Part shown: in pieces, positions 38,279 to 45,038 of the stretch
How positions within the stretch are numbered: the first letter of the stretch is position 1
Layout: each line of letters begins with the position of its first letter
Origin: Methanosphaerula palustris E1-9c
GTDB lineage: Archaea; Halobacteriota; Methanomicrobia; Methanomicrobiales; Methanospirillaceae
Assembly (NCBI RefSeq): GCF_000021965.1
Contig: NC_011832.1
Location: forward strand, 1,178,001-1,242,000
Length of the DNA stretch: 64,000 nt
Direction: 5' to 3'
Notes under the pieces: generated by a model
Told to the model about the DNA's origin: nothing
The model's input: the letters and a program-made list of their open reading frames with translations, nothing else
Databases searched by the model: none
Position numbers and translations under genes: made by a program

Positions 38279-38392
38279 CTTCTTATGCATCGATAAAAAG
38301 TATGCTGTTTTTCGTAATTGTGATTCGTGAAGAGTTACAACGTTTCTGTTCATTCCACTATTCGTCTGATTCTCGAATGGATATTCTTACTG

Positions 38393-38425
<33 letters not shown>

Positions 38426-38428
38426 TTC

Positions 38429-38556
38429 GATACTGGCGGCCATAGCAATCGGGATACACCTGGACCCATGCCGAACCCAGTAGTTAAGCCGGTTTACGTC
38501 GTATGCTGTACTGAGGTACGCGAGTCCTCGGGAACCATACAACGCTGCCAGTATCG
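38429..38556 (+). rRNA. 5S ribosomal RNA, copy 2 (divergent)
   Basis: Complete 5S-type sequence with helix I CGATACTGGCG/CGCTGCCAGTATCG and CACCTGGACCCATGCCGAAC. It differs from copy 1 at many positions, including compensated helix I and III pairs, so it looks functional rather than decayed. Confidence 0.88.
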
Positions 38557-38696
38557 TTTCATACCAAATTGCTATTTTATCGAGTTTTTCGGGAAAGAGG
38601 ATTGGCATATGAGCCAGTCCCTGCCATTGTGATATCCACTCATTTGTAGAATAGGTTTTTTTAGAGGGGATATTTTTCATACCTAATAGTAATTCA

Positions 38697-40174: not shown

Positions 40175-40345
40175 TGTTACAGTAATCTATGACGCAGGAA
40201 GCGATATAGGATGTTGGAGTCTGCCGTAGGGTAAGGTTGAGGGATTCCCCCTATCTTGAGAAACGGTTTTTATAGGTGTGTTGCCTACAGGAGCATCGGC
40301 TGATCACCCCCGTCGACCGGAGGGGAAGCCGTGGAGATGGGATCT

Positions 40346-41017
40346 ATGAAAATTATTGGAATAAATGGAAGCCCCAGGAAGGAAGCGAGTAACACCAGAA
40401 AACTGGTTAGATCAGTCCTTGACGGAGCAGCAGAGCAGGGAGCTGAGACCGAGCTGATCGATATCGCTGACCAGATGATTACCTTCTGTTCTGGGTGCCT
40501 GACCTGTTACACAACTGGCTCGTGTATATTTGATGATGATGCCCAGGAGATCTTCGCTCTGATGCAGGAGGCTGATGGAATCGTGCTCGGCTCGCCGGTG
40601 TACATCCTTTCGATCACCGGCCAGTTGAAGCAGTTGCTCGATCGGCTCACGGATGCGATCCACTGTCAGATGCTCAGTGGAAAGTATGGGTGCTCAGTGG
40701 TGACGACTGGGGGCAGTTCAGATCAGGAGGTGCTTGTATATCTGAATCGTACATTGAACCTATTCGGAGTTACAGTGGTCGGCGGTGAGCGGGTAGCGAT
40801 GGCATCGGGGCCTGAAGCCTTCCATGAAGCTATCACTGATTCTCGCATTCTCGGCAGAAACCTGGCCGAAGCGATCGCAACGAAGCGGCGCTACCCTGAA
40901 CAGGAAGCGGTTCTGACTTCATTACAGAAACTCTTCTCCCAGTATGCAGAGGTGGCAAAGGAGATCTACCCTCATCAGTATGACTTCTGGCAGGCGAAGG
41001 GTGAGACCCACAGGTGA
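40346..41017 (+). CDS. Iron-sulfur flavoprotein (Isf-like)
   Basis: 223 aa from the third in-frame start (MKIIGINGSPRKE; GTG 40331 and ATG 40337 are alternatives). FMN-binding flavodoxin-like fold with GSPRKEASNTRKL and the compact cluster motif CSGCLTCYTTGSC (CX2CX2CX5C) at about 49-61, the hallmark of archaeal Isf proteins that pass electrons from ferredoxin to oxidants such as O2 or peroxide. A TATA-like TTTTTATAGG lies about 70 nt upstream. Confidence 0.9.
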   Translation: MKIIGINGSPRKEASNTRKLVRSVLDGAAEQGAETELIDIADQMITFCSGCLTCYTTGSCIFDDDAQEIFALMQEADGIVLGSPVYILSITGQLKQLLDRLTDAIHCQMLSGKYGCSVVTTGGSSDQEVLVYLNRTLNLFGVTVVGGERVAMASGPEAFHEAITDSRILGRNLAEAIATKRRYPEQEAVLTSLQKLFSQYAEVAKEIYPHQYDFWQAKGETHR

Positions 41018-41063: not shown

Positions 41064-43037
41064 CTACAGAAGCAGGATCCCCTGTATCTTCTGTTCTGGT
41101 TTGATGGCCGGCAGCAGTTCGCTCCAGGCCTTTTCAAGAAGGCTGATATAGTAGGCATGATCCATCTCTCTAGCCTCCCAGACCGGATCTGCCAGACCTT
41201 TTTTTGCATCTCTGACCACATACTGAAGCGTCATTCCAGGTGCAACCTGGACGCCGGCCCGGCGATACCCGGCGACGGCCCCTGCTTCAGGGCACCGGCG
41301 TGAATAGGTGACGGTACTGATCCGTCGGGAGATGAGGAGATCGGCTATCTTCGTATGAGCTAGCCCGGAACGGTACTGTTCATACACCCCCTCAGCTTCC
41401 CCTGTGAGTGCCTGCAGGTCCAGAACAGACCTGGCTTTCTTCATTACGCCGAGCACGGCCTGCTGCATCTGTGCTACATACCGTGGACAGTCGCCGCGCC
41501 GCATCATAATTCCCCTGACCTTCACCGATCCATCGTCCAGTCTCCCATAATATCGGTTGTAGGCCCCCGAACCGTCCTTTTGCTGGAGAAAGACCAGCCA
41601 GTCGTACGTCTCCACCTCGGTCCGAAATCCGGTTTCCTCCTCGACAGCCAGCTTCAGAGCTCTGATCGGTTCGCCCTGCACCCAGAGGCAGTCGACGATT
41701 CCGTGCAGCACGGTGAATCCTAACTGTTCAGCGATCGCTTTGGTCTCGATCAATACCTCCCTGGATATCCCGGTGATCCGTTCATGGACATCGACCCTCC
41801 CGAATTTCGCATTTCTGTACCCCGTGTATCCAAAGCAGGTGACCAGCATCCACTTCAGCATTGCGTCGACCCCGGTCACCGTGGGATCGCACCTCTTCTG
41901 TTCTTTGGTTGCAATCCGCATTGAGAGGAGTGGATCCAGCACCGTGGCGAGAAAGCCCTGTAACTCTGGATGTTCAACCGTCTCCGGGGAGAGGTTGTGT
42001 TTGACGATGATCGCAGGGTACAGCGAGGTGAAGTCGATCTGATAGGTCCGTCCATAAACCCCCGGTTCCGGCTGAAACATCATTCCCCCCCGATCAACAG
42101 CTCGAAGTGACCCCATGGACTTCACCCGATCAGCATCGGTCTTCTGCCAGGGGACTGCGATTCCGCGGGTGAGGGCTTCGTAGACCTCATAGGTGGAGAT
42201 CAGCGTGCCGGGTGTACAGCGGGCCGTCCTGTTCGGCGGGAGGCCGGTGAGCCGGGCTGCGATCAATATCCCTTCGAGCCCGGCTTCTTTATAGATGAAC
42301 GACTGAGCGGTATCGATCAGTACCCGCCCTTCAGGGAGCATCGCTTTTGGCCTGTGGTACATCCTGCCGTACGACCAGTACGACCGGGAGTCAAGGGTTG
42401 CAAATCGTTCTGTTCGAGAGATCGTCTGCCTGATCCCATGCCTTCCAGCAGCGGCGATCACTCGCTCCATCCAGATGTCGGCATTTGGAAAGAGAAGCAG
42501 GTCCGGGTCGACGGCCTCGATCAGCCCGAAGAGATCGGCGAGCACGGTCTGCTCGTCCCCGCTGAACCGGGATCTCTGGTGATCGCAGATGACCGTGCAA
42601 TCGGTGATCGCCCTCTTTTGCAGGGGATCGCCTTTGATTGCGATCTCCATCGTCACCAGGTCCTGGTCGACAGTGGCTGAGAACCGGTCGATTCCTCTCC
42701 CTCTACAGGGAGAATGGCGGTGCTCGGCGAGGTACCGGAGATCCCGCCGGAGATCGACGTTGAAGAGACGGGCGGAATACTGTGTCTGTACTGCGATCAT
42801 CTCTGCTACAGATACGCCGGCATTGATCTGAAAACCTTTGAGGGGGCCGTAGATGGTCTGGATAGTCACCTCGCTGACAGGAAAGGTTTCGGTCAGCCCG
42901 TCAACCATCTCCCAGTGCGATGGCAGATCTGGCAGGTTAAAGAGGAATGATGAGGGTGCCCTGACTCGTTCGATCGCGCCACCAGGTCCCCAGAGGACCA
43001 CCTCGTCCTTTCGGAGACTGCTATCGAGGATCCACAT
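41064..43037 (-). CDS. Degenerate family B DNA polymerase (PolB2-like)
   Basis: 657 aa, shorter than replicative PolB (about 780). Motif A is intact (QIDFTSLYPAIIVKHN). Motif B keeps the Lys (LKWMLVTCFGYTGY), but the usual NSxYG is lost. Motif C, normally GDTDS, reads GIVDCLWV: the second Asp survives, the first is Ile. The exonuclease motifs are largely gone. This matches the inactivated-looking PolB2 group of archaea; members in Sulfolobales have been linked to damage tolerance. It is the last gene of a four-gene operon; its ATG shares one base with the TAA of the gene before (TAATG). Residual polymerase activity cannot be excluded because both main metal-binding Asp positions are still Asp. 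Confidence 0.85.
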   Translation of the reverse strand: MWILDSSLRKDEVVLWGPGGAIERVRAPSSFLFNLPDLPSHWEMVDGLTETFPVSEVTIQTIYGPLKGFQINAGVSVAEMIAVQTQYSARLFNVDLRRDLRYLAEHRHSPCRGRGIDRFSATVDQDLVTMEIAIKGDPLQKRAITDCTVICDHQRSRFSGDEQTVLADLFGLIEAVDPDLLLFPNADIWMERVIAAAGRHGIRQTISRTERFATLDSRSYWSYGRMYHRPKAMLPEGRVLIDTAQSFIYKEAGLEGILIAARLTGLPPNRTARCTPGTLISTYEVYEALTRGIAVPWQKTDADRVKSMGSLRAVDRGGMMFQPEPGVYGRTYQIDFTSLYPAIIVKHNLSPETVEHPELQGFLATVLDPLLSMRIATKEQKRCDPTVTGVDAMLKWMLVTCFGYTGYRNAKFGRVDVHERITGISREVLIETKAIAEQLGFTVLHGIVDCLWVQGEPIRALKLAVEEETGFRTEVETYDWLVFLQQKDGSGAYNRYYGRLDDGSVKVRGIMMRRGDCPRYVAQMQQAVLGVMKKARSVLDLQALTGEAEGVYEQYRSGLAHTKIADLLISRRISTVTYSRRCPEAGAVAGYRRAGVQVAPGMTLQYVVRDAKKGLADPVWEAREMDHAYYISLLEKAWSELLPAIKPEQKIQGILLL

Positions 43038-43264
43038 TATCTATCCAATTCAGTGTGAACCAGTCCGATCAGCGCCGATATCACCGCCGCCTCGAGTGGG
43101 TCGTCGAATGCGTAGAATCCTTCACTGGCGTACTGCTTCGCCATCTTTCCAAGGTAGTCTGCCGCAATCTGGTCCTGCTCCCGCATCAACACTCCGCACT
43201 GTTGCCAGTTCCTGGCGATCCGCTGCACTGCCATCCTCGGACTCAGAAAGACCCGGCCCATCAC
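43037..43264 (-). CDS. Small protein of the PolB2 operon, paralog A
   Basis: 75 aa helical protein. It shares FDDPLEAAVISALIGLVHTE at its C-terminus with paralog B (43784-43999), so the two small genes come from one family. The start overlaps the RecA-like gene's stop by 4 nt. Function unknown; likely a subunit or adaptor of the PolB2/RecA-like complex. Confidence 0.75.
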   Translation of the reverse strand: MMGRVFLSPRMAVQRIARNWQQCGVLMREQDQIAADYLGKMAKQYASEGFYAFDDPLEAAVISALIGLVHTELDR

Positions 43265-43794
43265 CAGCCCCCGGCCAGCGTCCGCTGGGCCTGCACCCGC
43301 TGCGGGCCAGGCTGTGCCCTACCCTGACCGGATTCTGCCTCGTCGGGCAGATCGGCGTAGACCACCACACAGTCCGCATAGCGTGCAATCGTGGTCATAA
43401 TTCTGTCGAAACGGAGGGTGGTGAGGGTCACCAGTGCGGATGAGCGTTCGGCCAGGTCATGGAGTGCCTGGCCGATCTCTTCGATCAACAGCCGCTGATC
43501 GTCGTCGAGTGCGGCGAACATCTCCTCATCATACTCGACCAGCACGACCGTGGCCGAGACCTCCCGGATCACCTGCAGTAACTGGTGGGCAGTACAACTG
43601 CTCTGCACCTCAACACCCCCTATACCCCGTGGAAGCCTGTACAGAATCCGGGAGGTCGTCCCGTACAGATAGAGGGTGAGGAACCGGGTGGATGCGGCCA
43701 TGATCAACAACTGCAGTTGGATCTGTGGTGGCCCTGCGATGATCGTGAACCGCCCTGATGCCAATTCGATCCCGGGTTGGAGATCAAGCCGCAT
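43261..43794 (-). CDS. RecA/RadA-like protein lacking the Walker A motif
   Basis: 177 aa. The fold pattern of RadB/KaiC-type ATPases is visible: GIELASGRFTIIAGPPQIQLQ in the place of Walker A, then a Walker-B-like VVLVEYDEE and a final VTLTTLRFDRIMTTIARYAD strand. The P-loop GxxGxGK(T/S) is missing (AGPPQIQLQ), so ATP hydrolysis is unlikely. A Gln/Arg-rich tail (QGRAQPGPQRVQAQR) follows. It overlaps both small genes and is co-translated with PolB2. The design recalls bacterial ImuA, an inactive RecA-like partner of an inactive polymerase; the parallel is inference. Confidence 0.7.
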   Translation of the reverse strand: MRLDLQPGIELASGRFTIIAGPPQIQLQLLIMAASTRFLTLYLYGTTSRILYRLPRGIGGVEVQSSCTAHQLLQVIREVSATVVLVEYDEEMFAALDDDQRLLIEEIGQALHDLAERSSALVTLTTLRFDRIMTTIARYADCVVVYADLPDEAESGQGRAQPGPQRVQAQRTLAGGW

Positions 43795-43999
43795 TCTTCT
43801 CCCCCTGCTTGATCAGGCAGATCAGGACGGCCACGAACGCTGCCTCAAGGGGATCGTCGAACGCCTGGAACGTGACCTGAGCATGCGTTTCGAGCATCTG
43901 GATCAACCGGTCCATCGCCGGCTGATCCTCTGCCTTCAGTGCCCGCTGCATCCGTCTCCATCGCTGTAGAAGTGCAGGGTACTCGGCACGTGCACTCAC
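43784..43999 (-). CDS. Small protein of the PolB2 operon, paralog B
   Basis: 71 aa helical protein, first gene of the operon, overlapping the RecA-like gene by 11 nt. The C-terminal FDDPLEAAFVAVLICLIKQGE matches paralog A. The N-terminal half is basic (LLQRWRRMQRALK). Confidence 0.7.
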   Translation of the reverse strand: MSARAEYPALLQRWRRMQRALKAEDQPAMDRLIQMLETHAQVTFQAFDDPLEAAFVAVLICLIKQGEKNAA

Positions 44000-44477
44000 G
44001 GTCCCATCTCCCTGTCTGCTGGCAAACCATTATCCTCATCAAAGGACGAGATATGTACGGATCCCTTCCGTATTCCGTTTCGAACCCGTGAATAGGCGGA
44101 GGGACCCCATTTCTTTCTCTGTTGCATACAACTCACTCCACGCAGATCACCTCGATCCCGAGGCAGAGGTGGTTCTTTAACGTATGGGCATCTCTCTATT
44201 TGAGGGGTCAACCATGCGGGGTGAAAGTGATATCCGGGCTTATTTTACCACACCCTGCTCTTATCGGAGAGAATCAAGATCTATAAAAATGATTATATAG
44301 TATCAGGCGCTGTAGAAGATATCAGCGTGTTCTGTGGGTTTTTTGGAAGACAAATCTCCCATTGACGTCGAAGTCACTGGCTGCATGGAGAACTGTTTGA
44401 TGCAACTCCATCTGGTGACACTCCTGAATGTTCAGTGTCATCTCTGGTTGATCCCGGTCACACGTGGAGGAATGGAA
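44000..44477. other. Intergenic before the PolB2 operon and the flavin reductase
   Basis: About 480 bases between divergent units; it must hold the promoter of the PolB2 operon. No palindrome or damage-box-like repeat was recognised by eye. A short minus frame at 43996-44211 is not supported. Confidence 0.4.
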
Positions 44478-45038
44478 ATGGGAAAGATATCGCTTGGTAC
44501 CAACATGTACCTGTACCCAATGTCGATCAATCTGATCGGTACTAAGATCGGAGAGAAAGTGAACTTCATGGCCGTTGGCTTTGTCTCTCGTCTTGATATG
44601 AGCCGGCCACTCATCGGGGTGAGTATTAATCGGGAGCATGAGACCTATCATACCATCATGAAGACACAGGAGTTCAGTATCAATGTACCTTCCGCTGATC
44701 TGGTTGAACGGGTCGACTACTGTGGCCTGGTCTCTGGGAAAGACGTCGATAAAACCCCAATATTCGATATCTTCTATGGTATATTACCAAATGCGCCGAT
44801 GATCCAGGACTGCCCTGTCTCATTTGAGTGCAAGGTAGTCAACACTCTGGATTTTGGTTTGAATACACTGGTGATTGGTGAGATCGTGGCTTCATATGCA
44901 GATGAGCAGTCACTGACCGATGGTCATCCTGACGTGACAAAGTTCAAACCTATCCTTCTGACCATGCCTGACAACCGCTACTGGACCATCGGTGAATCCC
45001 TGGGTGATGCCTGGAAGATCGGTAAAACAATGATCTGA
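44478..45038 (+). CDS. Flavin reductase-like protein (DIM6/NTAB family)
   Basis: 186 aa from the ATG at 44478, where GTGGAGGA lies 6 nt upstream; earlier ATGs give an unrelated N-terminus. FMN-binding split-barrel fold: YPMSINLIGTKIGEKVNFMAVGF, GVSINREHETYHTI and EFSINVPSADLVERVDYCG. Such proteins reduce or bind flavins. Monocistronic. Confidence 0.88.
   Translation: MGKISLGTNMYLYPMSINLIGTKIGEKVNFMAVGFVSRLDMSRPLIGVSINREHETYHTIMKTQEFSINVPSADLVERVDYCGLVSGKDVDKTPIFDIFYGILPNAPMIQDCPVSFECKVVNTLDFGLNTLVIGEIVASYADEQSLTDGHPDVTKFKPILLTMPDNRYWTIGESLGDAWKIGKTMI

Follow-up and report, generated by a model that had tools for sequence, protein, structure and literature searches.

The locus studied here raises the question whether a polymerase with altered active-site motifs, encoded next to a RecA-like protein without a Walker A motif, can still be part of a working complex and, if so, of which one. 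The window, that is the whole stretch of 64,000 nucleotides of Methanosphaerula palustris E1-9c that was analysed, belongs to a genome consisting of a single contig of 2,922,917 bases. A first-pass annotation had described four overlapping genes at 41064-43999 as an operon of inactive-looking PolB and RecA-like proteins with two small paralogs. The ORF list revealed these four genes, all in the same direction on the minus strand and transcribed in the order PPB2', iRadA, PPB2 and PolB2 (Table 1). The results given below indicate that the operon very probably encodes the PolB2 mutasome, a multisubunit extender polymerase of translesion synthesis. Makarova et al. 2014 (PMC4104785) were the first to report the operon of this complex, and Timinskas et al. 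2025 (PMC11791011) modelled the complex. The interpretation offered by the first-pass annotation was partly supported.

Table 1. Features of the operon and its surroundings in the window
Feature	Coordinates	Strand	Basis
PolB2, B-family polymerase, 657 aa	41064..43037	-	NF004416, alignments, AlphaFold model and fold search
PPB2, arm-bearing small helical protein	43037..43264	-	Family alignment, tree
iRadA, RadA/Rad51-fold protein without Walker A	43261..43794	-	AlphaFold model, fold search, alignment, tail statistics
PPB2', armless PPB2 paralog without MGR N-terminus	43784..43999	-	Family alignment, tree
Micro-ORF, 43 aa (MQQRKKWGPSAYSR...)	43996..44127	-	Read from ORFs
Cis-element CACTTTCACCCCGC (consensus TTCACTTTCACMCCGCRC), candidate operator	44216..44229	-	Upstream-region comparison
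Flavodoxin-like gene, convergent neighbour	40331-41017		Named by reading the sequence
Flavin-reductase-like gene, divergent neighbour	44334-45038		Named by reading the sequence

The four genes are intact and translationally coupled. For the 75-aa ORF of PPB2 the true start is more likely the ATG at 43261 (MGRVFLSPRM), which gives stop/start overlaps of TGATG and TAATG. The micro-ORF is the first ORF of the transcript; it is located between the cis-element and PPB2' and overlaps the start of the latter by four bases. It may possibly encode a leader peptide, although this assignment is uncertain. At the corresponding position several relatives have the peptide GPSTxPRYQRGGRTG (L093:2895, L094:472, L106:4645, L239:7707 and the minus strand of L241 and L234), whose resemblance to the 43-aa ORF of the window is weak. 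Elsewhere in the window, a low-complexity tract at 38327-38680 has a run of His or Asp codons (CAT/GAT repeats) in overlapping ORFs.

The polymerase was matched to the NCBIfam family NF004416 with 1050 bits against a cut-off of 516, and to Pfam DNA_pol_B. Its AlphaFold model (pLDDT 91.9) matched archaeal B-family polymerases in the fold search with E values of about 1e-33. The alignment with PolB3 of the same genome indicated which catalytic motifs were altered. Motif C reads GIVDC, as had been noticed in the first-pass annotation, against GDTDS in PolB3; only the first Asp is replaced and the second (Asp449) is kept. In motif A, DLKSLYP is paired with DFTSLYP, and motif B retains its Lys with NS changed to TC. 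The exonuclease motifs had been reported as missing and this was borne out: LDIE of exo I in PolB3 corresponds to MEIA in PolB2, the FD pair of exo II is lost and the exo III region of the alignment is gapped. As judged from this alignment, the exonuclease active site of PolB2 is lost. Asp335 (motif A), Tyr340, Lys395 (motif B) and Asp449 were found to be invariant in the PolB2 of 32 relatives, which agrees with the earlier remark that both metal-binding Asp positions remain and some activity may persist.

Sulfolobus islandicus Dpo2 belongs to the same polymerase group and, as here, is without exonuclease and has Ile where the first Asp of motif C would be. This enzyme was shown to be robust, distributive and proofreading-free and to extend mismatches (PMC8764526). 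It is required for damage-induced mutagenesis in Sulfolobus, where the PolB2 genes are damage-specific (PMC8764526, PMC7390963). Dpo2 was characterised in a thermophilic crenarchaeon, whereas the activity of PolB2 in this methanogen is predicted from sequence. Since Asp335, Lys395 and Asp449 are invariant and Dpo2 is active with the same change, PolB2 is probably catalytically active rather than inactive. The term inactive-looking fits the protein as a description but is probably wrong as to its function, and the tie to archaeal PolB2 proteins and damage tolerance drawn in the same annotation was right, as Dpo2 with the same motif C change is an active extender (PMC8764526).

The RecA-like protein required a fold search, as the sequence-profile search of solved structures gave chance matches only and nothing credible. 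By Foldseek, the AlphaFold model of iRadA (pLDDT 87.9) was assigned to the fold of RAD51 paralogs as well as of RAD51 and RecA (probability 1.00, E value 4e-6, TM score about 0.6). In this model the strand 16-20 is followed by the helix 23-34 with only two residues in between, which leaves no space for the Walker A loop. The P-loop reported as missing is thus absent from the model while the fold is that of Rad51/RecA, and iRadA as modelled is a RadA/Rad51 homolog without an ATPase site. The C-terminal pattern Q-x-x-[LIMF] was found in 113 of 118 iRadA homologs, where shuffling of the tails gave 18.9; of 117 PolB2 proteins only 16 have it. The tail of iRadA in the window (QRTLAGGW) is PIP-like and degenerate. 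The clamp-binding motifs of the PolB2 mutasome were placed mostly in iRadA (PMC11791011), and the enrichment seen in the iRadA tails agrees with this placement.

The FDDPLEAA signature that had been noted in the two small proteins proved in the family alignment to be the signature of the PPB2 family across the order; the link to the published PPB2 was made by motif, length, place and partners. The PPB2 adjoining PolB2 carries the arm MGRV and the PPB2' encoded by the first gene is without an arm; 90 of the 108 PPB2 homologs begin with xGR. Timinskas et al. reported that duplicated PPB2 copies always differ in this way, with the arm on one copy only, and their best models contain one arm-bearing PPB2 in the trimer (PMC11791011). 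In the tree, PPB2' of the window grouped with the armless copies of its relatives in a clade of 11 sequences (support 0.94), apart from a clade of 12 arm-bearing sequences (support 0.94). This separation suggests that the PPB2 duplication is older than the split of these lineages, with trees of such short proteins being indicative only. Two Methanoregula-like genomes have extra armless PPB2 copies which branch beside the armless clade.

The first-pass annotation had named an operon restricted to close relatives, or signs of relaxed selection, as observations that would refute it, and neither was borne out. The operon is present throughout the order and also outside it, most commonly in the gene order iRadA-PPB2-PolB2. 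Substantial PolB2 matches were obtained in roughly 40% of 150 Methanomicrobiales genomes, including nearly all of the family of the window; the weaker matches in the remaining genomes are PolB3. The family extends to Methanothrix, Archaeoglobales and other MAGs and, counting weaker members, is present in many other families of the phylum. The dN/dS values were 0.07-0.32 for PolB2, similar for its partners and mostly 0.05-0.3 overall. For PPB2 and PPB2' most of them were far below 1, with more noise in pairs of paralogs from one genome and in very close pairs. These values show that the PolB2, iRadA and PPB2 families are under purifying selection, as estimated from the sequences compared. Decay was local and confined to few relatives: in G113 one PolB2 has internal stops (L035) with an intact copy elsewhere in the genome, and in G064 (L085) PolB2 is frameshifted and its PPB2 is without the N-terminus.

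The upstream regions of the operons were compared and a common sequence CACTTTC[AG]CMCC was revealed, with the consensus TTCACTTTCACMCCGCRC. After dropping identical regions, 101 upstream regions remained, of which 71 contained CACTTTC where shuffling predicted 1.9. The sequence usually lies 67-73 nt ahead of the point at which the iRadA match begins. An AT-rich box lies about 25-30 nt downstream of the element, which places the latter in an activator-like position. The element is also found before genes that have been split off from the operon, namely the armless PPB2 of L055 and L062 and the second iRadA of L088 and L089, as well as before each half of the L138 locus, which is divided, and before the L232, L247 and L249 cassettes. 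It is missing from many other stand-alone cassettes. Neither this element nor the presence of the MGR arm in one of the two small proteins had been noted in the first-pass annotation.

The element was also analysed at other repair genes. The radA, rpa and exonuclease tests were prompted by genome-wide pattern matches in one to three genomes each, and the remaining genomes are independent checks, though mutually related. Of 30 genomes compared at radA (L301-L330), 24 have CACTTTC[AG] upstream of the gene, also in families with little or no PolB2. The corresponding counts were 15 of 27 for an RNase_H_2 exonuclease that resembles PolB-exo (L361-L387) and 10 of 30 for an rpa-type gene (L331-L360). 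The background was 0.022 per window of that size, which is an overestimate as it includes the positives. Perfect 15-mers numbered 17 in four genomes with 0 for the reversed control. Among them were sites at two orc1/cdc6 paralogs (positions -54 and -57; L397 and L408, in two relatives from two families) and before a radical-SAM protein resembling rSAM_link_UDG with a score below its cut-off; some others had no obvious gene. In the window's genome the element scores (maximum 18) were 16 for the operon, 15 for the exonuclease, 15 for rpa (core ATTTTC) and 14 for radA; the next-best scores were 10-11 and only 0.56% of 260-nt windows reach 14. An orc1/cdc6 gene with the element was not found in this genome by the exact pattern.

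In Sulfolobus, Orc1-2 binds ANTTTC at its own promoter and activates Dpo2, and several damage-response promoters contain the same hexamer (PMC9738581). In the window's genome ACTTTC or ATTTTC is present at the promoters of the operon, radA, rpa and the exonuclease, which fits this pattern, and the same was seen in relatives. The match of the element core to ANTTTC is weak alone, because the core is short with six bases and one free position; the weight for an Orc1-2-like regulator would be carried by the gene set and the orc1/cdc6 paralogs. The two systems share the ANTTTC core and the presence of the element at the PolB2 genes, and may also share its presence at an orc1/cdc6 gene, as seen in the two relatives. 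They differ in that the methanogen element (TTCACTTTCACMCCGCRC) is longer and more constrained and its gene set includes radA, rpa and an exonuclease, and the methanogen regulator is putative. The operon may thus be a damage-induced translesion extender within a candidate methanogen damage regulon, both induction and regulator being proposed from sequence. With some reservation, we lean towards an SOS-like regulon of Methanomicrobiales in which an Orc1/Cdc6 paralog acting through TTCACTTTCACMCCGCRC would switch on RadA, RPA, the RNase_H_2 exonuclease and the PolB2 mutasome. Its likeness to the Orc1-2/ANTTTC response of Sulfolobus would be one of logic and perhaps of descent, and in the Methanosphaerula-related clade the accessory subunits would have multiplied into stand-alone cassettes, some under the same element. 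No description of the element or of a methanogen damage regulon was found in the literature search. Through the element such a regulon can be tested directly. The element also points to a possible extension of the Orc1/Cdc6-ANTTTC damage response outside the Sulfolobales.

The element could instead be an operator of cell-cycle or replication genes with the operon expressed along with S-phase genes, and radA, rpa and orc1/cdc6 are indeed linked to replication too. This reading is possible but rather unlikely, as the element is strongest at the PolB2 genes, which are damage-specific in Sulfolobus, also precedes the exonuclease and the repair-type radical-SAM protein, and has a core fitting the damage element of Orc1-2. 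The 17 perfect sites are also too few for a general promoter element, a reading which was rejected on account of this rarity. The orc1/cdc6 genes bear on the function of the operon itself, which was proposed in 2014, from their linkage to PolB2 in many euryarchaea, to serve alternative initiation of replication or the control of origins (PMC4104785). The two orc1/cdc6 paralogs carrying the element are in line with that proposal, but an Orc1-2-type damage regulator explains the link equally and Dpo2 extends mismatches and is required for damage-induced mutagenesis; such a role has only a slim chance of being correct.

The catalytic alterations bring in a further alternative, namely that PolB2 and iRadA form a dead scaffold which merely recruits or positions another polymerase. 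The loss of the first motif C Asp, the TC in motif B and the missing P-loop of iRadA would fit such a scaffold; however, the invariance of Asp335, Lys395 and Asp449 in 32 relatives is unexpected for a dead polymerase and Dpo2 is robustly active with Ile at the same place, which makes the scaffold improbable. The broken PolB2 genes of G113 and G064 could be taken as signs that the operon is a decaying remnant of an ancient polymerase cassette with no present function. This is extremely improbable: the operon is intact in nearly all genomes of the family and in the window, and the low dN/dS of PolB2 and its partners led to the rejection of a pseudogene reading.

For the PolB2 mutasome the following mechanism is proposed. 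Damage would induce transcription of the operon via TTCACTTTCACMCCGCRC, probably by an Orc1/Cdc6-type regulator. PolB2, being without proofreading, would extend mispaired or lesion-terminated primers with Asp335 and Asp449 as metal ligands. iRadA would be seated on PolB2 as a dead RadA protomer and its C-terminal QxxL tail would tether the complex to PCNA. PPB2 would form a helical trimer in which the MGR arm of the arm-bearing copy enters the cleft between PolB2 and iRadA beside the DNA, and the armless PPB2' fills the remaining positions. One part of this scheme was observed here, namely which genes are present, their residues and folds, the purifying selection on them, and the conserved element that is also found at repair genes. 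The other part comes from published work, namely the extender activity, damage induction and mutagenesis reported for Sulfolobus and the architecture of AlphaFold models of relatives. That it holds in this organism, and the nature of the protein that binds the element, are proposed by analogy.

The operon corresponds to the published mutasome in its three components and their order, the loss of the exonuclease motifs and of the first motif C Asp, the RadA homolog without ATPase site and the PPB2 duplication with one arm; the clamp motif in iRadA may be a further likeness, its counterpart here being the degenerate PIP-like tail. The arm is MGRV here against MGRT, and nothing essential in the operon is different. 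It would thus be a known archaeal translesion complex in a methanogen, in which the one-arm trimer model could be tested with two PPB2 types that occur together naturally. The one-arm duplication was already described and the interest lies in the regulon reached from the operon; what appears new is how old the two PPB2 types are and how they are selected, together with the cis-element common to several genes and the multiplied accessory cassettes of close relatives. A parallel of PolB2-iRadA-PPB2 with E. coli Pol V (UmuD'2C-RecA) was also published (PMC11791011). Pol V and ImuA-ImuB likewise combine a translesion polymerase with a RecA-family partner, and Pol V has small subunits with an N-terminal arm. 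In contrast, their polymerase or polymerase-like protein is of the Y-family, the RecA-type partner is another one and the small subunits are unrelated, so that the operon belongs to neither group. The parallel with ImuA-ImuB drawn in the first-pass annotation stands as a loose analogy; membership in ImuA-ImuB (ImuABC) was rejected, as the polymerase is of the B-family and ImuB of the Y-family, and the PolB2 mutasome supersedes it.

The closest relatives (59-62% PolB2 identity) showed a reshuffled arrangement, with PolB2 accompanied by iRadA only, PPB2' only, PPB2 only or standing alone. As these relatives are MAGs, some linkage to PolB2 could be hidden by contig breaks. Each of their genomes has 1-8 matches to PPB2 and 1-6 to iRadA, and several PPB2'-iRadA-PPB2 cassettes, with or without a second iRadA, are distant from PolB2. 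Stand-alone cassettes of this type were seen at L232, L235, L236, L241, L244 and L249, some with a second divergent iRadA type. The operon of the window looks like such a cassette that has remained linked to PolB2. Further iRadA-PPB2 pairs had been noted earlier in haloarchaea, which gives the multiplied cassettes a precedent, and since PolB2 is often apart from iRadA and PPB2, the stoichiometry of the mutasome may differ in the closest relatives. The neighbouring ORFs gave no obvious mobile-element context for the extra cassettes, two of which lie near a kup-like gene. In G017 the PPB2 of the operon is armless (L068) and a separate arm-bearing PPB2 (L277) has the cis-element 235 nt upstream.

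Some of the pattern matches lay within coding sequence and were discarded as chance. An identical 24-mer, CCGAGGCACTTTCGCACCACAGGC, occurred in four genomes (L267, L268, L272 and L283) with no consistent downstream gene; it was set aside as a chance match to the element and is perhaps part of a structured RNA. Two protein families without a Pfam or NCBIfam match, one of 136-137 aa (L273 and L288) and one of 125-143 aa (L280 and L295), have the element 76-80 nt upstream in two genomes each and are candidates for new damage-response genes.
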